From: a virus
IMG/VR virus record: IMGVR_UViG_3300042542_000683
Location: 1-40,843 of that record
DNA length: 40,843 nt
Strand: one strand, 5' to 3'
Of the stretch, positions 8,166-19,320 are shown in pieces. How positions within the stretch are numbered: position 1 is the stretch's first letter; every line of letters begins with the position of its first letter. Both the position numbers and the translations under genes were made by a program. The notes under the pieces were generated by a model that worked only from the letters and a program-made list of their open reading frames with translations, had not been told where the DNA came from and made no database searches.

Positions 8166-8388
8166 AAGTTACACCTTCCATCTTGCCATCTGTTTTAAGA
8201 TGTTTAAGTTTTGCGGGCAAACCGTTTAACACCCAATTTTTGTATGGCTGTGGCACATCATCAATTGATGATGCTTTGGTGTACCAGGCTCTAAATTCTG
8301 CAAGCGTGTTTAAATCTTCAGGCTTTTTGATGTCAAACTCATTGATAGCCGTTGCCCATTTAACGCTTATTACATGGTCTGTAATCAT
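8158..8388 (-). CDS. 76-residue protein between two ART-like genes, unknown
   Basis: Begins MITDHVISVKWATAINEFDI and ends KTDGKMEGVTYV. It is mostly helical and charged, with EFRAWYTKASSIDDVPQPYK in the middle and no recognised motif. Its ATG overlaps the TGA of the large MuF protein (ATGA) and its end overlaps the start of the second ART-like gene, so all three appear translationally coupled. Possible roles are a packaging adaptor, a chaperone, or an immunity-type partner restraining the neighbouring effector domains in the producing cell. None of these is shown by the sequence. Confidence 0.65.
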   Translation of the reverse strand: MITDHVISVKWATAINEFDIKKPEDLNTLAEFRAWYTKASSIDDVPQPYKNWVLNGLPAKLKHLKTDGKMEGVTYV

Positions 8389-10850
8389 TCTTTTACCACC
8401 ACTGCCCCTCTGTTTAGAATTACATACATGGCATCTTTGCCATTGTCTGCTAAATCTGAATACCTAATTGCGTCATAACCATTAGCCGCGGCGTATGCAC
8501 CAGGATCTTTAAATGTCCAACCTAAAGCGCGCAAGTCATCACGGAACGCAATTGCTTTTAAAGTGTCTGTTGGCATGCCTCCCATTGTTTCTACATAAGC
8601 ATCTACAAATTGCCCCATTACTGGATCGCTGTAAGAACGCCCAAATGCTTTGTCATAGAAAGCGCTTGATAATGCTTTTGCTCCCGTTTCGGCAACATCA
8701 TGTTCTATAAATTTAGCCGTTGGGGATAGCACCATTTCCAAAACATTGCCTGGTTTATCCATTGCGTATTTAAGAACAAATTCATAATTTACGCCTGAAT
8801 ACACTCCATTGCCAATTACGCCAGTACCAACAAACATGTCACCCGATTTAAACATTTCAATCATTTGCTCAGCGGTAAGCGTTTCATCACCAATTACGCC
8901 GCGGTACACTTTAACGCCGCCTTTTTGTGCCAACAAATCGAAATCTTTGGCGCTTACAATAATAGGTTTTGCCGTAAACCCTTGAGCCTCTAGCAAAGCC
9001 TTTAAGCGCGGATCTCCACCAACAGGGCGGTATGTTGTAATGTATTCATTAGTAGATCCTTGCCAAATTTTTGTAGGCGCGCTAGGAGGATCTTTAATTT
9101 TAGAAATTTCAACAATTTTGTTTTTATCCCATGCTTCAAGATCTTTAACTTTGGCAGGGTTTGAAGCAAAAGTAATAACCTTTATTGGTTTAACAATTAC
9201 AGGAACTTTCCAACCAAATTCTTTAGCCATAGCCTGAACCAAAGCGTTAGGGGTTTTTCCTCCTGTTTGAATATACTCAGTAAACATTTCAGCATAAAAT
9301 TCTTTAGTGTTTCTGCCTGAGTATTGACTTTTAAACGCGTCAGGAAATTGCGCTTTAAGTCTAGCAATAGCGTTTTGGCGTTGATAACTTTGCGATCCGT
9401 ATGAAATGTCATCAATAAGATGACCCCATTCATGGGTAAGCGTGTATTCAAGTTGAGTTGTTTTAGGAGTAACAGGCATTTTGAACCCGCCTTTTTCTGT
9501 TGCTCCGTAAAGGGGATTTCTAACAGTTTCAGGAGTTACCCATAAATCTGATCTGCCGCCATAAGCCCAACCGTATTTAGTTTTTGACTCTTTTTCAATG
9601 TGTATAACAGCCCGTTCTTTAGGGTTATTTATTTGTAATTTTTCTACTTCTTTAATAACTAAAGCGCGTTCCGCTTCTGTTGTTTTTAAACCCTGATAAC
9701 TAAATTGAACTTCAATTTTGCCATTTTTGTAAATTACGCCTTTATCCAATAATGATTTATCTGCTCGCTTAATTATGTTGGGGCTAAGCAATGCTTCAGC
9801 CCTCATTCTGCTAAGCGGGGTACTGTAAGAGCGTATAAGGTTTTGTACAGCGGCTTCTCTTACAACATCACGCGGAAGAATTTGCCATTCACCAGGCTTA
9901 AAGTCACGCGCATCTAATTGTTCATAGAAAGTTTGAGCGCTATTTGTAACTTTAGGTGCATGGAGTTCTGCCATAATCCGTTCTGCTTGTTGTTGAGCAG
10001 TTGGGAAAGCAGGTGCAGGTGGCGGTGGTGCAATAATTGTTGCGCCTGGCATCTCAGGTTCTTCCTCATATCCAGGAATTACAGGGAGCAACACGCAACG
10101 GCAATGTGGGTGAGCAGGGGGCTGAGCATCACCTGACGCAAAGGTTTGACCAATAACAATTACTTGCCCGTCATTTTTAGCGCATACATCACATGGATCA
10201 GATACCGCCCATTCCATCTTTTGTAGGCCAGCCTCTTTGTAATTTTGTATTGAGCCAAATGACATAGCGCGGTTTTGCTCAGTAATGGCAATTGTAAGAG
10301 CGCGGCTAGGACTTGCCACATGCCGCCCAATCATTACAGCGGCGCTTTCAGCATCTAGGCCAGCGGCGATTGAGTCAGAAAGAGCAGTGCCTAAATTTAT
10401 TACAGTTTCTTTATTAAACTTTTTGAAATAACTATCAGCGTTTACGCTTGTTAAATAATCAAGAAAACCTTTAGGCGGATTGAGCAAAAGAGCAGTGGCT
10501 TTATCTCCAGGCTTCCAGTTATCCCAATTGATTTCAATATCATCAGCCTTGTTTGCTTCACGGGTTTTGCGTATCCATTCACCAGCGGCGGCTTGCCCTA
10601 AAAGGTAAGCCTCAGCCCATGCGCGTGTAACGGTTTGACGCAACGGTTCATCATTAAGATAAATGTTAAGTATGAGCCATGAGCGAGCGCGTGTGCGGTC
10701 TTGTGCAGGATTGTCAGTTGGTTGCGGTTGAGTTTCCTGATACTTATCAAAAACTCTTTTAAAATCCGTTACCTGGTACAACGCCGCTCTAATCTTGACC
10801 GCGTTCTTTGCCGCTAAGCGCCCGTCTGCCTCAAGAGCGCCTTTGATCAT
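8385..10850 (-). CDS. MuF minor head protein fused to metallopeptidase-like and ART-like domains
   Basis: An 821-residue multidomain protein next to the portal. Residues 1-260 form the phage Mu gpF-like head morphogenesis domain, ending in the Cys/His signature CDVCAKNDGQV ... PPAHPHCRCVLLPV. A Pro-rich linker follows (IIAPPPPAPAFPTAQ). Residues about 300-560 hold a gluzincin-like domain with HEWGHLID (H473-E474...H477) and a downstream FYAEMFTEYIQTGG, whose Glu could be the third zinc ligand. From about residue 640 there is an ART-like domain: GVKVYRGVIGDETLT (Arg650) and GVIGNGVYSG. MuF proteins with C-terminal toxin-type domains are known in phages and prophages and are thought to travel inside the head. 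The start overlaps the portal stop (ATGA). Confidence 0.75.
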   Translation of the reverse strand: MIKGALEADGRLAAKNAVKIRAALYQVTDFKRVFDKYQETQPQPTDNPAQDRTRARSWLILNIYLNDEPLRQTVTRAWAEAYLLGQAAAGEWIRKTREANKADDIEINWDNWKPGDKATALLLNPPKGFLDYLTSVNADSYFKKFNKETVINLGTALSDSIAAGLDAESAAVMIGRHVASPSRALTIAITEQNRAMSFGSIQNYKEAGLQKMEWAVSDPCDVCAKNDGQVIVIGQTFASGDAQPPAHPHCRCVLLPVIPGYEEEPEMPGATIIAPPPPAPAFPTAQQQAERIMAELHAPKVTNSAQTFYEQLDARDFKPGEWQILPRDVVREAAVQNLIRSYSTPLSRMRAEALLSPNIIKRADKSLLDKGVIYKNGKIEVQFSYQGLKTTEAERALVIKEVEKLQINNPKERAVIHIEKESKTKYGWAYGGRSDLWVTPETVRNPLYGATEKGGFKMPVTPKTTQLEYTLTHEWGHLIDDISYGSQSYQRQNAIARLKAQFPDAFKSQYSGRNTKEFYAEMFTEYIQTGGKTPNALVQAMAKEFGWKVPVIVKPIKVITFASNPAKVKDLEAWDKNKIVEISKIKDPPSAPTKIWQGSTNEYITTYRPVGGDPRLKALLEAQGFTAKPIIVSAKDFDLLAQKGGVKVYRGVIGDETLTAEQMIEMFKSGDMFVGTGVIGNGVYSGVNYEFVLKYAMDKPGNVLEMVLSPTAKFIEHDVAETGAKALSSAFYDKAFGRSYSDPVMGQFVDAYVETMGGMPTDTLKAIAFRDDLRALGWTFKDPGAYAAANGYDAIRYSDLADNGKDAMYVILNRGAVVVKE

Positions 10851-12694
10851 GTTAGATAAGCCTTAGCCAGCGCCCTAGCGGTATCTAAATCGCCATCAAA
10901 AGCACAACGGTTAAGAGCATCTCCTACAATTGGATCTAGTGATTTAAACTCAAATAATCTTGCGCGTTTTCCTTTAGCCGCCCATTTCATAAATGCTTTT
11001 ACTTCTGTGGCTTCTTCTTCTGAACTATCTGTAACGGCTATTTCTTCAGGTTTTTCTTCCAACGGATTAGGAGTTGTTGGATTAATTGGTGTTGCATCAG
11101 AGCCGCTAAGTGCTGGAGCATTTGCGGCAGTAACCGCATCAATAATGCCATCAGGTGAAAATAACAAAACGCTTGAACCTGTAACCATCATTGGCATGTC
11201 TGCCTGTGGTGTATCAAGTAAAGGCAAGCCCATTTCAGAACGGCGTTCATTGATTGACTTACCGCCTGAGCGCACTTCAATTTCATTCTTGCGGGCGTTT
11301 TCTTCATTGTCCAAACGGTTTGAAGTCATTAGTTTGAATTCAAGTTCACGCGGCATACCTAAGTATGTGTAAGAAAGATTTGTTAGTTGCTTTGAGATCC
11401 AGTTAGCAAGCGGGCCAATGCCTAACGCTTCTGCATTTTCTGCTTGACCTTCTGAATAACCTGAGCCACCTAAACCGCCCTTTGGAGAAAAACCAATTTC
11501 AGATGGTTGAACGCCAAAGTGACCGCAAATAGAAGTAACTAAATAATCATCAAGAGTATCTTTAAACTTTTCGCCATAACCTTCATTGACAATTGGAGTT
11601 AAACCCTTTGGCAATAGGCGGGCGCGCTTGCGTTGCTGTGTCTGTCCAGCAAGATCATCATTGAGAATACGCTCATAAGCAAGCAAGAGATCAGGGTTAG
11701 TTCCCCAATCTTCATCAGTTGTAAACATCAATTCAGGCATAACGCCATCTGTGTACTCAGCGCGTATCCATTGCTGACGGCGTAGGTAAATGTCTGCTAG
11801 TGAAAGCGCTCGCTCTACTGGGCTAAATCCGTAAACAGAAATAGAACGGCGATTGCGCACCATGTAAGCCAATTGATCAGATGTAAATTCACCATCTGCT
11901 TTTGGATCTTCATCTGTTGCGGAAAATTCTGAGCGCGGGAAACCATAAAGGATCTGTTGGAACGCGGCGTTTGGTGGCATTGGGCGCATACCGCGGTCAT
12001 CAATAAGTGGTTTGATTGTTGTGCCATCAAGAATTTGGAAACCGTATAGATCTCCACCTACTGTTGGCTGTGGGTAAACCGCCCACGCATCAACAACAAG
12101 AATGTCCTCAACAGCAATGTTGATCCAGTCCTGCCATGTGTATCCGTTTGCAGGGTCAGGGTTTTCCCAAAATGTACGCAAGCGGTTAATTTCATCTGTG
12201 TACTTCTCGCGGGCTTTAGCCATAGCGCGCACATGATCGCCGCCTGACTCAGCCGCAATCTTTTCTGAAGCGTCATCACCTAAAACAATGTCAAACTGAA
12301 GGCCGTTCATTTTTGATTTAGTTACTTCAATACAACGGCGCAAAATATCAATTGCATCTGCTGAAGCGCGCAATGTATTAAACGGAACAAGTTTTGTTTC
12401 CGTAATGTTGATGTTCTGAGCAACCTGGTATTCATAACGGCGTGGCTCAGGGCGGCCTGTAATCGGATCAACGGGGTTAATTGCGCCAGGAAGAATTGGC
12501 ATGCCTGGGCCAAATGGAACTGTTGCGCTAAATGGTGCGCGTGGGAGTGCGGTTGTGTTGCCGTATTGTGACTGTAATTGCAAGCCATTCATTAACTCTT
12601 GTGTACCAATTGTTGTTGCACCAACAGGCAGGTTAGGGCCTTTTTCAATGTCAGTTCCAACAATTGCTCTTACGATACGGTCACGCAAACCCAT
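10847..12694 (-). CDS. Portal protein
   Basis: A 615-residue protein beginning MGLRDRIVRAIVGTDIEKGP. Portal features include RRCIEVTKSKMNGLQFDI (stem helix entry), WQDWINIAVEDILVVDAWAVYP and a wing region with DGTTIKPLIDDRG. They continue with VYGFSPVERALSLADIYLRRQQW, DDYLVTSICGHFGVQPSEIGF and a C-terminal NEIEVRSGGKSINERRSEMGLPLL, as in HK97/SPP1-type actinophage portals that form the dodecameric DNA gate. The last 120 residues are acidic and then basic (KRARLFEFKSLDPIVG) and may contact the MuF protein. SD GAGGGG lies 6 nt before the ATG. Upstream the genome switches strand into the plus-strand island, so this gene probably has its own promoter in 12695-12776 or depends on long antisense read-through. 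Confidence 0.85.
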   Translation of the reverse strand: MGLRDRIVRAIVGTDIEKGPNLPVGATTIGTQELMNGLQLQSQYGNTTALPRAPFSATVPFGPGMPILPGAINPVDPITGRPEPRRYEYQVAQNINITETKLVPFNTLRASADAIDILRRCIEVTKSKMNGLQFDIVLGDDASEKIAAESGGDHVRAMAKAREKYTDEINRLRTFWENPDPANGYTWQDWINIAVEDILVVDAWAVYPQPTVGGDLYGFQILDGTTIKPLIDDRGMRPMPPNAAFQQILYGFPRSEFSATDEDPKADGEFTSDQLAYMVRNRRSISVYGFSPVERALSLADIYLRRQQWIRAEYTDGVMPELMFTTDEDWGTNPDLLLAYERILNDDLAGQTQQRKRARLLPKGLTPIVNEGYGEKFKDTLDDYLVTSICGHFGVQPSEIGFSPKGGLGGSGYSEGQAENAEALGIGPLANWISKQLTNLSYTYLGMPRELEFKLMTSNRLDNEENARKNEIEVRSGGKSINERRSEMGLPLLDTPQADMPMMVTGSSVLLFSPDGIIDAVTAANAPALSGSDATPINPTTPNPLEEKPEEIAVTDSSEEEATEVKAFMKWAAKGKRARLFEFKSLDPIVGDALNRCAFDGDLDTARALAKAYLT

Positions 12695-12716
12695 GTGTAT
12701 CCCCTCAATGTGCCTC

Positions 12717-12742
12717 TTGTATTTCAGGCGTGTGGTTATGAT
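12717..12742 (+). promoter_or_regulatory. Possible promoter for the plus-strand glycan cassette
   Basis: The divergent gap between the portal and the plus-strand island contains TATGAT (12737-12742) 34 nt before the first ATG, with TTGTAT 14 nt further upstream. The spacer is short, so only the -10-like element is moderately convincing. Confidence 0.35.
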
Positions 12743-12776
12743 AGCGATTTATTGGAATTCATGTAGTGTAAGGCTT

Positions 12777-13778
12777 ATGAACTTAGTACAAAGGGCAGTA
12801 CAAAACGGCGGCAAATTAGCCCCATTAGTCATACCACACGGATTAACAAGCGGTACAGGTTTAATGAACCCCTCAATTTTTATTGATGATGACGGGGAAA
12901 TTTTAGTAAACCTACGCCATGTTAATTACACCCTTTACCATGCTGAAAATGAGCAACTATTTCCTAGCCGTCACGGGCCTCTTTCTTATTTGCACCCTGA
13001 AAAAGATCGCCGTTTAGTAACCGTCAATTATCTTTGCCGCTTAAACGCCAACCTTGAAATGACTCACCATGCCAAAGTGGATACATCTGCTTTTGATGTT
13101 GAACCTATTTGGGAGTTTGTTGGGGAAGAAGATTGCCGCGTAATTCAATGGGGCGGGGAGTATTACTTAGTTGGAGTGCGGCGCGATACAACTACCAATG
13201 GCGTAGGCCGTATGGAGTACAGCAAGATTGAGATTGATCGTGAGAACTGGACTGTCAAAGAAATTAGCCGTGTGCGCATAAATGCCCCTGAGCCAAATGA
13301 CTCATATTGTGAAAAAAATTGGATACCTGTAAATGATAAGCCTTTTCACTTTATCAAATGGACTATGCCAACAGAGTTAGTAAAGGCTGATCCTGAAACA
13401 GGCGCGTGTGAACAGATTTTTGTAAAGCCAACAGTTGCGCCTCCTGCTGATCAGCGTGGATCTAGCCATGTAATCCGTTGGGGCAGTATGTACATTTCTA
13501 TTACCCATGAAGTAAACCTATTTAAGAATTACCTAAAGCAGAAAGATGCAATTTACCGTCACCGTTTAGTTGTATGGGATCAAGAGTTAAACATTGTGGG
13601 ATTAGGTCAGCCTTTTTCTTTCCTTGATGCTCGCGTTGAATTCTGTGTAGGGGCAACGGTTCACAAAGGTAACCTTTTGGTGTCTTTTGGTTTTCAGGAT
13701 AACGCCGCTTTTGTTTTGCAAGTACCGCAAAAGGTAGTAGAAGATCTAATAGTGGAGGCATTATCTAATGAAAATTGA
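12777..13778 (+). CDS. Five-bladed beta-propeller glycosidase-like protein
   Basis: A 333-residue protein if translation begins at the ATG at 12777 (MNLVQRAVQNGGKL). Upstream in-frame starts would run into the portal gene on the other strand and are unlikely. Repeated blade-like strands include MNPSIFIDDDGEILVNLRHV, CRVIQWGGEYYLVGVRRD, CEKNWIPVNDKPFHFIKW and a final ARVEFCVGATVHKG, the pattern of the GH43/GH130-type five-bladed propellers often paired with glycosyltransferase genes. It may bind or trim a glycan, such as the host wall polysaccharide or a virion glycan. It overlaps the next gene by 11 nt and heads a three-gene operon on the strand opposite to the structural genes. SD AAGG is close to the ATG and weak. 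Confidence 0.6.
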   Translation: MNLVQRAVQNGGKLAPLVIPHGLTSGTGLMNPSIFIDDDGEILVNLRHVNYTLYHAENEQLFPSRHGPLSYLHPEKDRRLVTVNYLCRLNANLEMTHHAKVDTSAFDVEPIWEFVGEEDCRVIQWGGEYYLVGVRRDTTTNGVGRMEYSKIEIDRENWTVKEISRVRINAPEPNDSYCEKNWIPVNDKPFHFIKWTMPTELVKADPETGACEQIFVKPTVAPPADQRGSSHVIRWGSMYISITHEVNLFKNYLKQKDAIYRHRLVVWDQELNIVGLGQPFSFLDARVEFCVGATVHKGNLLVSFGFQDNAAFVLQVPQKVVEDLIVEALSNEN

Positions 13779-14331
13779 TCAATTAGTTGTTGAATTATCT
13801 AAAGATCCATTTAATCCAGCGCTTAATTTTGATGTTGCGGTGGAGTATGAGAAGCAAAATCAGACTGCTTCAGCCGTTTCTTTCTATTTAAGGACTGCTG
13901 AATACGGTCACACTTACCACCCTAGCCTTACTTATGCCTCACTTTTAAAGGTTGCCCATTGCTTTGATGATCAGAATGACCGCCAGGGAACTGTTAGCAA
14001 TTGTTTATTACAGGCTGTGGCTTATCTGCCCTACCGCCCTGAAGCCTATTTTCTTTTGGCTCAGTTTTATGAACGCTTAGGACAATGGCAAGAATGTTAT
14101 ACCTGGGCGCAATTAGGATTGCATCAACAACCATGTGGAGCATTGCCAGTACATGTTGGTTATGAAGGCCAATATGTACTGGTATTTGAAAAAGCAGTAG
14201 CCGCGTGGTGGATAGGGCGCAAAGAAGAAAGCCTAGATTTGTTGCGTCAATTAAATGTAATAAACCTTGAGCCTGGTTATGCAACAGCAGTTAAAAACAA
14301 TTTGGAAAGGCTTAGCCATGTTGATGTTTGA
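13768..14331 (+). CDS. TPR-repeat protein of the glycan cassette
   Basis: A 187-residue helical-repeat protein. Paired helices recur with TPR spacing: NPALNFDVAVEYEKQNQTAS, SLTYASLLKVAHCFDDQND, then a clear unit YRPEAYFLLAQFYERLGQWQ with ECYTWAQLGLHQQP. The same 'rpEa...la.~y...~~w..a...a..gL' block often forms the C-terminal half of phage or bacterial glycosyltransferase-TPR fusions. Here no catalytic glycosyltransferase part is present, so it may be a scaffold for a host enzyme. SD GGAGG stands 8 nt before the ATG. It overlaps the propeller gene upstream and the methyltransferase downstream. Confidence 0.65.
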   Translation: MKIDQLVVELSKDPFNPALNFDVAVEYEKQNQTASAVSFYLRTAEYGHTYHPSLTYASLLKVAHCFDDQNDRQGTVSNCLLQAVAYLPYRPEAYFLLAQFYERLGQWQECYTWAQLGLHQQPCGALPVHVGYEGQYVLVFEKAVAAWWIGRKEESLDLLRQLNVINLEPGYATAVKNNLERLSHVDV

Positions 14332-14992
14332 TGTAGGGGCTAATCGCGGTGATGCAACACTTGCCGCGCTTGCTCAAGGATACCGCGTAATAGCCTTAGA
14401 AGCCGCTCCACGCGTTTATTCACGCCTAGTTAGTAACTTTATTTACAACCCAAATGTTGTGCCTCTTAGAATGGCTGTGGCTGAAAAAGATAATGAACGC
14501 CTAAAATTTTATGAGGCTGAAGAAGATGGCCTTTCAACGCTAAGCAAAGAGTGGCTAACCAAAGAGGGCATGCCATACAACGGTAAGCCTCACCGTGAGA
14601 TTGAAGTAAACACAATTACGCTAGACACATTGGCTGACAAATATGGCAACCCTGACTTAATCAAAATTGATGTGGAAGGTGCTGAGTGGGAAGTATTTAA
14701 AGGAATGACGCGCCATTACGGGGGAACGCTTTGTTTTGAATGGACACTTCAAACTTTAGAACAGCATGAAGAACAATTAGATTATTTATGGAATTTGGGC
14801 TATCGGGAAGTTGCACCGCAATACATAGTTAATCATTTAGAAGAACCAAAAGAATGGTTTGATTTACAACCGCAAAGTACAGGTTCATTATTAAAATGGC
14901 ATAGCCAACATTTACAGGCGTGGCTTGACGGCGGTTGGAAAGTTGCCAACCTACGCCCTACCGCTGATGTTGGAATGTTGTGGGTGCGTTAA
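14318..14992 (+). CDS. FkbM-family SAM-dependent methyltransferase
   Basis: About 224 residues starting at ATG 14318, chosen because GGAAAGG lies 7 nt upstream; an earlier in-frame ATG at 14267 has no such site. The SAM-binding motif I is MFDVGANRGDATLAALAQG. The acidic motif II is VIALEAAPRVYSRL, and the FkbM signature is DLIKIDVEGAEWEVFKGM. FkbM enzymes O-methylate sugars and other small-molecule hydroxyls, so with the propeller and TPR genes this points to glycan modification. It overlaps the TPR gene by 14 nt. Its stop overlaps the stop of the convergent collagen-like gene by 4 nt, leaving no room for a terminator. Confidence 0.8.
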   Translation: MLMFDVGANRGDATLAALAQGYRVIALEAAPRVYSRLVSNFIYNPNVVPLRMAVAEKDNERLKFYEAEEDGLSTLSKEWLTKEGMPYNGKPHREIEVNTITLDTLADKYGNPDLIKIDVEGAEWEVFKGMTRHYGGTLCFEWTLQTLEQHEEQLDYLWNLGYREVAPQYIVNHLEEPKEWFDLQPQSTGSLLKWHSQHLQAWLDGGWKVANLRPTADVGMLWVR

Positions 14993-15000
14993 GCGCTTAA
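14989..15000. repeat. 12-bp palindrome at the convergent stop codons
   Basis: TTAAGCGCTTAA is a perfect palindrome that contains the stop codon of the methyltransferase (plus, 14990-14992) and the stop of the fibre gene (minus, 14991-14989). It is too short to be a good terminator, so the two convergent transcripts probably overlap. Confidence 0.6.
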
Positions 15001-18000
15001 ATCGCCAACTAAAACCCATGTATTAGTTGCGCGCTTAATAAGTGTTGCTGATGACCATTGAGTGCGAAGTTTTAAACCAGGTGTAGCGTTAATAGTTACG
15101 CCACCAGTTGCTACAACAGTTGTCTGACCAGCACCAGTTTGTAAAATGTTGATCTGTGTACCTATTGGGTAAGCAACGGTTGCGTTAAGCGGAACTGTAA
15201 GGTTGTTAGCAGAAGCATTAGACATTTCTACAAGTTTTCCAGCATCAGCAATACCTATGGTGTAAGAAGCAGTCTGTGCGCTAGTAGCCAAAATAACATT
15301 GACTCCACCATCACTGGCAACAGTTATACGGTTAGTGCCACCTGTTGCAATTGCAATACCTTGAGAAAGTCCTAGTGGATTGTACTCAATGTAAGCCATT
15401 CCTGTTGCATCAACTACCATTTGCTTTCTGATAGAAGTGCCAGTCCAGTCTGAACCAGCAGTGTGTCTGTATAAAGATGTTTTTTCAAATACATTATTAC
15501 CAGTAGCACTAACATTAAGTCTTTGTACTAGCGATTCATTGGTTGCTGCTGTACCTACGGTTGTGCCATTGACATCTACTTTATATGTGGGGCTAGTCTG
15601 ACCAATACCAACATTGCCGTCAGAAGCAATAGTTAAATCAGCGCTGTTATTTGTACCTAAATAAAATGAACCAGTAGCGGTTGCGTTAAATACAACAAGG
15701 TCATTAGATGCTGTGTACATACTAAGTACAGTAGAAGCAGCGCTATTACCCATACGCATATCAGATACGGTTGTTGATGAGTAAATGTGTAAATCTGATT
15801 GTGGGTTTGATGTACCAATGCCAACATTGCCACTAGCAGTAATGCGCATTTTCTCAAAATTTCCGCCGCCAGAACCATTTGTTCTTGTTCCAAAACTTAA
15901 TGCGCCGTCATAGTTGCCGTCTGTCGCGTTCTCTTTAATTCCACTGATAAATGCAAGATTGGAAACACTTGAAGTTCCAGTAGTATTTCCAATAAATGTA
16001 ATTCCAGAACCAGCGTTTCCGCTTGTTGCTGAAGCCGTTCCTGTTATACCCACATTGACTACATTTGGTGACCAAGTAGTTCCTACCGCACCTGAAACAT
16101 CTAACAGCAATCCTGGAGTTTTACCAATACCAACATTGCCTGACGCGTCAATACGCATATATTCTGTATCAGAAGAATTACGGAAAGAATATGTTGCAAC
16201 AGCACTTGAGCCAGTGGGTGTTCTTAAATACATACCCCAGTTAACATCTGTGGATACAGTGCCAGCCGAAAATCCTGTTGTACCACCTGTAATTCCACTT
16301 CCGCTAATAGAGTACCCAACAGACCGAGTTATTCCGTTAACATCTAATGATGTTGAAGGTGTGCTTGTACTAACGCCAACACTACCACTAGCATTAACGA
16401 TAAACGGAGTTGTATCTGAAGCCACATCATTAACTACAAATGAGTTACCAGTACCATTGTTTTGAATAGTAATTGGAACAGCAGTGCCGCTTGCAATTGT
16501 AAATGTATTGTCATTTGACCAGGCATTGCTTGTTGTAAGAATACTTGCGCCTGAAATACCTTGAGTACCAGTAGTTCCTTGTGAACCAGTAGTACCAAAA
16601 GTACCTTGAGTACCAACCTGTCCTTGAATACCAGTTGTACCCTGAACACCTTGCGCGCCAGTAGTTCCTGTTGTGCCTTGTGAACCAGTTAAACCTTGAA
16701 TACCATTAGTGCCTTGAATACCCTGAATACCAGTAGTACCAGTTATGCCCTGTAATCCCGTAGTACCTTGAGTACCTTGAGTGCCTTCAATTCCCTGGCT
16801 ACCAGTTGTTCCTTGTGTTCCAGTAATTCCTTGAACGCCAGTTAAACCCTGTGTTCCCTGAATACCATTAGCACCAGTTGTTCCCTGTGTACCATCATGG
16901 CCTTGAATTCCTTGCAGTCCAGTAGTTCCTTGAGATCCAGTTGTACCTGTTGTTCCCTGGCTACCAGTTATGCCTTGAATTCCTTCAATACCTTGAATTC
17001 CTTCAGTTCCCTGAGAACCAGTCAAACCTTGAGAACCATTGAGTCCATTAGTACCTTGCGCACCAGTTAATCCTTGAACGCCCTGGCTTCCAGTAATGCC
17101 TTGTAAACCTTCAGCACCCTGAATTCCAGTTAAGCCTTGATGACCTTCTACACCTTGAGTACCAATTGTTCCCTGAGTACCTTCATGGCCTTGAATACCT
17201 GTTAAACCTTGTGTGCCTATTGTGCCTTGAATACCGTCTAAGCCTTGAGTACCAGTTTCTCCCTGAATACCGATAAAGCCCTGAGTTCCTTCAACGCCTT
17301 GAATTCCTTCTAAGCCTTGCGTTCCTGTTTCGCCTTGAATTCCAGTTAAACCTTGAACGCCTTGTAACCCTTGAATTCCTTCTATGCCTTGAGAACCAAT
17401 TTCACCTTGAATTCCAGTGACACCTTGAGTTCCTTCAATACCCTGAATTCCTTCAACGCCTTGAGTACCAGTCTGACCCTGAATACCAACTAATCCTTGT
17501 GTACCTGTTGTTCCTTGCAAACCTTCAGTACCTTGAACGCCTTGCAGTCCTTGAGTTCCTTGAGCGCCAACAGTTCCTTGCGCACCTGTTGTACCTTGAA
17601 CACCAACGCTTTGAGTAATAAGAGAAATGTTGTGGTTGTTAGGAAAGTTTGTTGTGCCTGTTCCGCTTGAGTCAATTAGTGTTACAGGAAAAGTAAAATA
17701 ATCATTAGGAACATTTGTAGGTGTACCGTTTACTTGCCATTCTTGATAATTGGCAGAATTAGTTCTATCTTGAATAAAGAAAATGTCACCATTTTTAATG
17801 TTTGCTAATAAGAAATCAATGTCCACATTGAAATCTGTTAAATGAGAAATGTAAATGTTTGTTGCAGAACTTTGTGTAGCGTTATTCCAAATAATGTTGC
17901 CAGCGTCAGGTGGTGGTGTTTGTGAATTAGTTGTTGCGACATATTCAAAAATAGATGATGATGTACCGCTTGCGCCAGTGTTGCCTTGTACGCCTTGAAT

Positions 18001-19320
18001 ACCATTTAAGCCCTGAACGCCCTGGCTACCAATAATTCCTTGAATACCCTGTATTCCTTGCGTTCCATCAGTACCCTGAATACCTTCAATGCCCTGTGAT
18101 CCAGTTGTGCCTTGAGTTCCTGTTGTACCTTGTGCGCCTGTAAGTCCTTGAATACCTTCAGTACCTTGTGCGCCAATAGCACTTTGAATACCTTGAATTC
18201 CTTGAGTTCCTTGTAATCCAGTTATTCCCTGAATTCCATTAGTGCCTTGCGCGCCAGTTGAACCTTGTAATCCAGTTAAACCTTGATGTCCTTCTACGCC
18301 TTGCAAGCCTTCAATGCCCTGCGTTCCAGTTATACCCTGTACGCCCTGTGTACCTTGAGCGCCTTCTAAACCTTGTAATCCCTCAATGCCTTGAGTTCCG
18401 TCATGGCCTTGAATTCCCTGTACACCTTGCGCACCTTCAACGCCTTGCGTACCGTCAATGCCTTGAATTCCCTCTAAACCTTGTGAACCAGTAATGCCCT
18501 GAACGCCTTCAATTCCTTGAATACCTTCAACGCCCTGCAAACCTTGTAAGCCCTCAACACCCTGAGTTCCTTGTAAACCTTCTAAGCCCTGTGTTCCTTG
18601 AGTTCCGTCAAAGCCCTGAATTCCATCTGTACCTTGAACACCCTGTAAACCTTCAAGCCCTTGTGTTCCCTGCACACCTTCAATTCCTTGTGTGCCTTCA
18701 AATCCTTGCAAACCAATTAAACCTTGAGTACCAGTAGCACCTTGCGCACCAATAGTTCCCTGTGTGCCATCTCCCTGAATACCTTGTGTACCTTGAATAC
18801 CTTCTAAACCTTGAACACCTTGTAAACCTTCAATTCCCTGTGTTCCGTTAAATCCTTGTGTACCAGTAGCGCCCTGTGTGCCAGTAATACCTTGAGATCC
18901 AGTAGTGCCTTGAGATCCGTTAAATCCTTGCGCACCCTCTAAACCCTGAATACCAAAAATACCTTGAGAACCTGTTAAACCTTGTGTTCCAGTAATACCT
19001 TGAGCGCCATCAAAACCTTGAATACCGTCAGTACCTTGAGATCCTTCTAGCCCTTGAATACCTTGCGTTCCATCAAAGCCTTGTATGCCTTCAATACCTT
19101 GTACGCCTTGTGTACCTTGTGAACCTTCTAAACCTTGTGTGCCTTGCGCTTGTTCATAACCAAAACCTTGTAAACCTTGTGTGCCTTGAATACCTTGTGC
19201 CGCCGCCGCACCATTCATGCCTTGAACACCTTGCAAACCAACAGGGCCAGGAGTAGTTACATTGATTGTTGGGATTACTGGTTTGATAATGACTGCATTA
19301 CAGCCGCAATATGTACACAT
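14989..19320 (-). CDS. Giant collagen-like fibre protein
   Basis: 1443 residues. The N-terminus MCTYCGCNAVIIKP carries a C-x2-C-x-C motif. Residues about 27-450 and 573-921 are two collagen-like blocks of Gly-X-Y triplets, with X mainly Thr/Ile/Leu/Val and Y mainly Gln or Glu (for example GTQGLEGSQGTQGVQG), and almost no proline. They are separated by a 120-residue globular domain (NIIWNNATQSSATNIYI...). Residues about 930-1330 are a beta-rich shaft with four 'SGNVGIG.t.P...LdV.g'-type repeats. The last 100 residues (ASYTIGIADAGKLVEMSNAS ... WVLVGDLSA) form a knob that is also present at the end of the tail fibre at 36161. It likely forms a trimeric virion fibre. It sits between terminase and portal, so it could decorate the head rather than the tail. 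The start follows directly on the upstream stop (TAAATG). Confidence 0.8.
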   Translation of the reverse strand: MCTYCGCNAVIIKPVIPTINVTTPGPVGLQGVQGMNGAAAAQGIQGTQGLQGFGYEQAQGTQGLEGSQGTQGVQGIEGIQGFDGTQGIQGLEGSQGTDGIQGFDGAQGITGTQGLTGSQGIFGIQGLEGAQGFNGSQGTTGSQGITGTQGATGTQGFNGTQGIEGLQGVQGLEGIQGTQGIQGDGTQGTIGAQGATGTQGLIGLQGFEGTQGIEGVQGTQGLEGLQGVQGTDGIQGFDGTQGTQGLEGLQGTQGVEGLQGLQGVEGIQGIEGVQGITGSQGLEGIQGIDGTQGVEGAQGVQGIQGHDGTQGIEGLQGLEGAQGTQGVQGITGTQGIEGLQGVEGHQGLTGLQGSTGAQGTNGIQGITGLQGTQGIQGIQSAIGAQGTEGIQGLTGAQGTTGTQGTTGSQGIEGIQGTDGTQGIQGIQGIIGSQGVQGLNGIQGVQGNTGASGTSSSIFEYVATTNSQTPPPDAGNIIWNNATQSSATNIYISHLTDFNVDIDFLLANIKNGDIFFIQDRTNSANYQEWQVNGTPTNVPNDYFTFPVTLIDSSGTGTTNFPNNHNISLITQSVGVQGTTGAQGTVGAQGTQGLQGVQGTEGLQGTTGTQGLVGIQGQTGTQGVEGIQGIEGTQGVTGIQGEIGSQGIEGIQGLQGVQGLTGIQGETGTQGLEGIQGVEGTQGFIGIQGETGTQGLDGIQGTIGTQGLTGIQGHEGTQGTIGTQGVEGHQGLTGIQGAEGLQGITGSQGVQGLTGAQGTNGLNGSQGLTGSQGTEGIQGIEGIQGITGSQGTTGTTGSQGTTGLQGIQGHDGTQGTTGANGIQGTQGLTGVQGITGTQGTTGSQGIEGTQGTQGTTGLQGITGTTGIQGIQGTNGIQGLTGSQGTTGTTGAQGVQGTTGIQGQVGTQGTFGTTGSQGTTGTQGISGASILTTSNAWSNDNTFTIASGTAVPITIQNNGTGNSFVVNDVASDTTPFIVNASGSVGVSTSTPSTSLDVNGITRSVGYSISGSGITGGTTGFSAGTVSTDVNWGMYLRTPTGSSAVATYSFRNSSDTEYMRIDASGNVGIGKTPGLLLDVSGAVGTTWSPNVVNVGITGTASATSGNAGSGITFIGNTTGTSSVSNLAFISGIKENATDGNYDGALSFGTRTNGSGGGNFEKMRITASGNVGIGTSNPQSDLHIYSSTTVSDMRMGNSAASTVLSMYTASNDLVVFNATATGSFYLGTNNSADLTIASDGNVGIGQTSPTYKVDVNGTTVGTAATNESLVQRLNVSATGNNVFEKTSLYRHTAGSDWTGTSIRKQMVVDATGMAYIEYNPLGLSQGIAIATGGTNRITVASDGGVNVILATSAQTASYTIGIADAGKLVEMSNASANNLTVPLNATVAYPIGTQINILQTGAGQTTVVATGGVTINATPGLKLRTQWSSATLIKRATNTWVLVGDLSA
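16555..17605 (-). repeat. Collagen-like coding repeat block 2
   Basis: About 350 codons of Gly-X-Y triplets. At DNA level the recurring unit is about 9-18 nt, but glycine, glutamine and isoleucine codons vary synonymously, so exact long direct repeats are broken up. Confidence 0.8.
17970..19250 (-). repeat. Collagen-like coding repeat block 1
   Basis: About 425 codons of Gly-X-Y triplets near the N-terminus of the fibre, with the same X = Thr/Ile/Leu/Val, Y = Gln/Glu bias and the same synonymous codon shuffling as block 2. Confidence 0.8.

Follow-up and report, generated by a model that had tools for sequence, protein, structure and literature searches.

The stretch of DNA analysed here, called the window, comprises all 40,843 bases of IMG/VR virus record IMGVR_UViG_3300042542_000683 and comes from a freshwater phage, which is classified as a siphovirus because its predicted products include tape-measure and Dit proteins. 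Three overlapping plus-strand genes at 12777-14992, encoding a beta-propeller protein, a tetratricopeptide repeat (TPR) protein, and an FkbM-type methyltransferase, form a cassette between the minus-strand genes of a portal protein and a collagen-like fibre, an arrangement that a preliminary description had reported and that the open reading frames (ORFs) and their coordinates confirm. The relationship between this cassette and the fibre is the subject of our analysis. The features of the locus are as follows:

10847..12694, minus strand: portal protein (phrog_2662, E 3.5e-58), flanking the cassette and outside the module
12695..12776, no strand: 82-nt intergenic region separating the divergent portal and propeller genes; the sequence common with cassette-lacking kin starts just upstream of the portal start
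12777..13778, plus strand: beta-propeller protein, 333 aa, GH130/GT108-like, candidate glycosyltransferase (likely of mannosyl type)
13768..14331, plus strand: TPR protein, 187 aa, probable partner of the propeller, serving as scaffold or recruiting its substrate
14318..14992, plus strand: FkbM-type S-adenosylmethionine (SAM) methyltransferase, 224 aa, probable sugar O-methyltransferase
14989..19320, minus strand: collagen-like fibre, 1443 aa, G-(T/I/L)-(Q/T/E) repeats, proposed substrate

The propeller and TPR ORFs overlap by 11 nt and the TPR and FkbM ORFs by 14 nt, and the 3′ ends of the FkbM and fibre genes, which lie on opposite strands, share 4 nt. A purine-rich, ribosome-binding-like sequence is located upstream of all three cassette ORFs. 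No convincing sigma-70 promoter was found in the 82-nt intergenic region, and a scan of the cassette for sigma-70 promoters and terminators was uninformative, with sites rarer than in shuffled sequences. Relatives of the propeller were identified in at least 590 stretches of viral contigs and confirmed by tblastn. The propeller is followed by the TPR gene in the loci examined, and FkbM then follows in most of them. This breadth and constant order indicate that the three cassette ORFs are real genes. The earlier reading of the three as one operon is likewise supported.

The presence of the cassette is closely coupled to that of the collagen gene. In a census of the window phage family, restricted to distinct portals with a complete interval from the terminase side to the portal, 34 intervals carry both cassette and collagen, 20 carry neither, and none carries a single one of them. 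The preliminary description had held that fibres without the cassette, or the reverse, would speak against a link, and the link survived this check. A portal tree (quick search, with support from the Shimodaira-Hasegawa-like approximate likelihood ratio test) requires five changes of the cassette label, at least four of them forced by well-supported branches, and the collagen changes along with the cassette in all four independent pairs. Contigs L222 and L212 share 94.8% identity over 10 kb, ending near the portal start. Past this breakpoint, L222 carries the cassette and the collagen gene, and L212 carries a single 498-aa fibre-like protein that is not a collagen. Judged from these alignments, cassette and fibre constitute a jointly exchanged fibre block, which replaces the earlier notion of an insertion into the head module. 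In the same region (L212:8171-8452 and 8463-9959), the cassette-lacking kin also retain a 93-aa gene with a start, IIKPIVPIVEITAPGPQG, similar to the N-terminal sequence of the collagen fibre, IIKPVIPTINVTTPGPVG; this likeness suggests a common virion anchor.

The coupling extends to whole records and to other aquatic contigs. Matches to PF01391 occur in 34 of 36 cassette carriers, including Actinomycetia phage DSL-LC01 with its distant propeller only, versus 0 of 6 cassette-lacking kin. A control set of other aquatic contigs (NrdJ) contains collagen in 12 of 32 records. This set was intended as a neutral base rate and proved to hold the distant propeller in 10 of its 32 records; collagen is present in 8 of these 10 versus 4 of the 22 others, an association among related records. 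The distant propeller of DSL-LC01 (L151:7451-8332) has about 22-25% identity. It is common in DSL-LC01-related contigs (NrdJ contigs G039-G068) and accompanies collagens with Pro/Ala at X and Thr at Y, often many kb off.

A cassette-blind search was performed with DNA patterns for GTQGTQG and GPTGPTG and restricted to genuine collagen-type repeats from records 20 kb or longer; its counts refer to the matches listed, with related records counted separately. Close propellers, with E values no higher than 5e-80, are encoded by 22 of 36 G-T-Q records versus 0 of 25 G-P-T records (Fisher p 2e-7). Three remote propeller matches (E 1e-20 to 1e-27) occur among the G-P-T records, and the difference holds when they are counted (Fisher p 2e-4). 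FkbM is likewise found in 16 of 36 G-T-Q versus 1 of 25 G-P-T records. In G074, G099, G100, and G105 the nearest G-T-Q motif listed lies 5-27 kb from the propeller, and in G074 and G099 the distance is about 25 kb or more, so that adjacency alone is insufficient to explain the pairing. Synechococcus phage S-SCSM2R has a G-X-Q collagen about 9 kb from its propeller, and in Synechococcus phage DSL-LC02 the order is collagen, then propeller, TPR-FkbM, and FkbM, then a tail fibre. Propeller homologues in several G-T-Q collagen records (G072, G074, G075, G079, G090, and G091) contain one or two in-frame TGA/TAA codons, which could reflect stop-codon recoding, frameshifts, or decay.

The composition of the collagens defines the link further. 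The window fibre matches PF01391 above the cut-off (E 7e-116, 378 bits) as well as tail fibre families of PHROGs, and the same gene in an identical contig (L152, L232) contains 118 triplets without interruption. Over the 249 triplets of the window fibre, Thr occupies 29% of X and Gln 55% of Y positions, and neither proline nor lysine is a common residue. The pooled collagens near cassettes show the same tendency, with Thr at 31-41% of X, Gln at 55-59% or Thr at about 20% of Y, and very scarce proline and lysine. This composition recurs in several unrelated backbones, both Synechococcus phages included. In typical bacterial collagens, by comparison, X is proline and Y is threonine (PMC8968730), and about half of the X positions are proline in E. 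coli prophage collagens (PMC3368898). From these comparisons, the cassette appears linked to one kind of collagen, which is rich in Thr and Gln and poor in proline. No preference for T-Q coupling within triplets was detected (0.9 of expectation), and the acceptor is therefore not readable from triplet coupling. Propeller-positive G-X-Q collagens contain more X-threonine than propeller-negative ones (32 versus 20%, p 0.014), a post hoc comparison that serves as a lead only; in the same post hoc analysis they have fewer bulky X residues (p 0.008) and do not differ in Y-glutamine. Such differences lend weak support to X-threonine as the acceptor.

The fold of the propeller was analysed with an AlphaFold model built from 29 family members (pLDDT 84.8, pTM 0.85). 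Foldseek searches of the PDB returned GH130 beta-1,2-mannobiose phosphorylases as the top matches (7fip, E 9e-9); also among the best matches are Uhgb_MS, a mannoside synthase, and three GT108 enzymes of Leishmania, MPT-1, MPT-2 (6q4x, E 9e-7), and MPT-4. When compared with structure models of viral proteins, the propeller best matches uncharacterised proteins from Pithovirus LCPAC isolates and from uncultured phages, together with larger Solivirus, Indivirus, and Satyrvirus proteins named fucosyltransferase, LicD, or WcaK-like pyruvyl transferase, with TM-scores of up to 0.79 on the query. Twelve residues (E118, D119, R145, K180, N181, R227, H244, K256, Y260, H262, E288, and D308) are invariant among 23 homologues down to 25% identity. 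The E118-D119 motif, in which the D119 codon is located at 13131-13133, has a possible counterpart in Uhgb_MS, where E-D-C-R of the S-SCSM2R homologue (L150) aligns with the same letters (E 0.47, weak and indicative only); the Asp of this motif is a putative catalytic residue. The modelled fold thus places the propeller, remotely, in the GH130/GT108 superfamily, and the protein itself is probably a candidate glycosyltransferase. The earlier statement that the cassette lacks any glycosyltransferase catalytic domain is for this reason probably wrong. Searches by sequence were less informative: a PDB search with the single propeller gave no matches, one with the propeller profile gave weak or chance matches and one GH130 at E 0.3, and the propeller has no family in PHROGs. 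The GH130 match of the S-SCSM2R propeller is better than that of the window protein and still below threshold.

The partners of the propeller point in the same direction. The TPR protein matches TPR_17 above the cut-off (E 1e-7, 31.9 versus 24.4 bits) and phrog_13126, annotated as beta-1,4-glycosyltransferase (E 2e-5). L630 and L631 encode propeller and TPR as a single protein, L632 does so in reversed order, and in L634 a GT2 domain and TPR precede a distant propeller in one fusion. The phrog_13126 match and the GT2-TPR-propeller fusion bear out the earlier view that the TPR protein is of the type associated with glycosyltransferases. The FkbM protein exceeds the cut-offs of both PF05050 (E 1.4e-19, 71.3 versus 22.7 bits) and TIGR01444 (E 8.6e-25, 87.9 versus 37.7 bits). 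TPR-FkbM fusions were found in L280, L296, and DSL-LC02, and a TPR-Methyltransf_24 fusion in L290. Several lineages have, instead of FkbM, Methyltransf_24, ATP-grasp, and, adjoining the collagen gene, GT25, to which the collagen galactosyltransferases of animals belong; in others its slot is taken by GT17 with Methyltransf_24. This combination, a core of propeller and TPR to which varying glycan-tailoring enzymes are added, is the pattern expected of a glycosylation module. In DSL-LC02 the TPR protein (L149:9959-12112) is fused to FkbM and to radical-SAM/SPASM domains, which suggests an extra peptide or sugar modification within the same fibre system.

The propeller family is, by its distribution, essentially viral, since about 85,000 species genomes of bacteria and archaea yielded only five contigs with it, all from metagenome bins. 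Three of 50,697 named phage records match: DSL-LC02 and S-SCSM2R (47-48%), and, distantly, DSL-LC01. DSL-LC02 belongs to a collection of genomes assembled from metagenomes (PMC10611076), and the recorded host of S-SCSM2R is Synechococcus sp. WH7803. The preliminary description had stressed that the cassette runs opposite to its neighbours, which is true in the window and does not hold generally: of 99 distinct relatives whose fetched stretch includes a collagen ORF, 75 are opposed and 24 co-directional. Opposed transcription was therefore dropped as a functional trait. In L034, L035, L050, and L141, cassette, fibre, and portal all run in the same direction, with the module at the same site in the other relative orientation.

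Because the same genes accompany one proline-poor kind of collagen across many unrelated phages, the module likely acts on the fibre, and we consider it fairly probable that the cassette is a dedicated glycosylation and sugar-methylation module for the neighbouring collagen-like fibre, exchanged together with it. The virion fibre had been named among the possible targets, a suggestion that the co-occurrence supports. The genes, their order, the fold, the fusions, and the co-occurrence with Thr/Gln-rich, proline-poor collagens are direct observations, from which we infer catalysis, the donor, the acceptor residue, the methyl acceptor, and the benefit (triple-helix stability or surface masking). 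In the proposed mechanism, the propeller would transfer a sugar, likely from a mannose-type donor, to the fibre chains, most plausibly to threonines of the G-T-Q repeat while the chain is nascent and unfolded. The TPR protein would hold or present this repetitive acceptor, FkbM would O-methylate the transferred sugar, and module and fibre would move together between phages. The near-absence of proline and lysine makes hydroxyproline or hydroxylysine chemistry unlikely in the window fibre, and with proline nearly absent, threonine glycosylation may, by analogy, stabilise the triple helix; surface masking, receptor binding, and protease protection are alternative benefits. A bolder version, which we put forward tentatively and regard as doubtful, holds that viral-only protein glycosyltransferases of the GH130/GT108 fold, in tailed phages and giant viruses, densely O-glycosylate Thr (probably at X) in G-T-Q collagens that almost lack proline, so that sugars, capped by methylation, take over from proline and hydroxyproline as stabiliser.

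Several observations weigh against a fibre-directed module. The window propeller falls below the Pfam cut-off for GH130 (PF04041, E 0.0066, 15.9 versus 26 bits), as does its best homologue (21.4 bits), and its TM-scores against the solved GH130/GT108 structures mostly range from 0.45 to 0.62, which supports membership of the superfamily and not of a family and means that activity could be lost or different. The tree provides four pairs only, for which a sign-test p of 0.125 is the best reachable. Two cassette records, both fragments, have no collagen match, and 14 of the 36 G-T-Q records listed lack the propeller, which is thus not obligatory for such repeats; in many of these propeller-less collagens the X residues are bulky, and the repeats may not form true triple helices. 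The contigs are phylogenetically non-independent, and neighbouring genes can be swapped together without a functional link.

This last point underlies one alternative, in which cassette and fibre merely hitch-hike as a block in a common hypervariable locus without functional dependence. They are adjacent in most contigs and the whole locus is replaced as a unit; however, the pairing recurs across unrelated backbones, holds over the distances of several to many kb described above, and follows collagen composition, which makes this account quite improbable. It is unlikely, if somewhat less so, that the cassette alters a host surface glycan such as O-antigen or capsule, blocking superinfection or changing the receptor, with fibre adjacency reflecting clustering of host-range genes. 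FkbM enzymes methylate sugars, phage glycosyltransferases frequently have this role, and such a role has been proposed for fibre-adjacent enzymes of pelagimyophages (PMC7029224). The host receptor target, also raised in the preliminary description, gained no evidence of its own: it leaves the link of the propeller to Gly-Thr-Gln and not Gly-Pro-Thr collagens unexplained, and non-collagen fibres at the same slot never occur with the propeller. None of the three cassette proteins matched the anti-phage defence models of PADLOC.

The propeller and TPR proteins might instead lack catalytic activity and act as chaperone or assembly factor of long collagen fibres, with FkbM as the sole enzyme, methylating the fibre or being accessory. 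Long fibres frequently need chaperones, the co-occurrence would be accounted for, and the propeller resembles known enzymes only remotely. Invariant polar residues of active-site type, including the E-D motif, the GT2, GT17, GT25, and ATP-grasp partners of other lineages, and giant-virus relatives within proteins named after sugar enzymes argue against it, and we rate it as unlikely, somewhat below a host-glycan target. A propeller that degrades host mannosides as a phosphorylase or hydrolase, like typical GH130 enzymes, is very improbable: GH130 phosphorylases are the top fold matches, but metabolic neighbours are absent, the pairing with TPR and methyltransferase is constant, and the family is essentially restricted to viruses.

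A dedicated glycosylation module for the fibre can be compared with several known systems; phage virion glycosylation and giant-virus collagen glycosylation are themselves already known. The GT108/GH130 enzymes (the Leishmania MPT mannosyltransferases/phosphorylases and bacterial beta-1,2-mannoside phosphorylases, with Uhgb_MS) share the beta-propeller fold and possibly the E-D motif and are the best PDB matches. The window propeller differs in its 8-15% identity, its sub-cut-off GH130 score, its viral occurrence, and its ties to TPR, methyltransferase, and collagen; its acceptor would be a protein. Mimivirus L230, a collagen lysyl hydroxylase/glucosyltransferase with a GT25-like domain that has been compared with GLT25D1, glycosylates low-proline viral collagen (PMC9614988). 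It resembles the proposed module as a virus-encoded enzyme acting on such collagen, but it targets hydroxylysine, whereas collagen triplets of the window type are almost lysine-free, the cassette has no hydroxylase, and the enzyme family is different. Mycobacteriophage virions carry glycans on capsid and tail-tube C-termini (Freeman et al. 2023, as cited in PMC12619734); the likeness is glycans on virion proteins, and here a collagen fibre and another enzyme fold would be involved. In the cuticle collagen of the vent worm Riftia, glycosylated threonine is described as taking over the stabilising role of hydroxyproline (Mann 1996 and Bann 2000, as cited in PMC10141479). This proposed analogue differs in being an animal collagen modified with galactose, and it offers a possible reason why proline-poor collagens carry the module. 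The collagen-like proteins of E. coli O157 prophages are also phage collagen-like tail fibres, but the recombinant protein is stable without threonine glycosylation and, unlike the window fibre, has proline at about half of X (PMC3368898). In the literature searched, which left most subscription journals outside, we found neither a dedicated modification enzyme for phage collagen-like fibres nor the propeller fold, the TPR pairing, or the link to G-T-Q phage collagens.

Elsewhere in the window, the MuF-like protein (8385-10850, minus strand) is unusually long (821 aa). Beyond its PF04233 domain it contains a HEWGH metalloprotease-like motif and then a C-terminal stretch that, judged by eye, resembles an ADP-ribosyltransferase.

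Collagen-like fibres are common in aquatic phages. If the proposed function is true, a widespread phage module would make glycosylated, methylated collagen almost without proline, and one enzyme family would connect phages and giant viruses. Hundreds of hypothetical phage proteins would gain a function, and the module would represent a bacterial-type route to glycosylated collagens.
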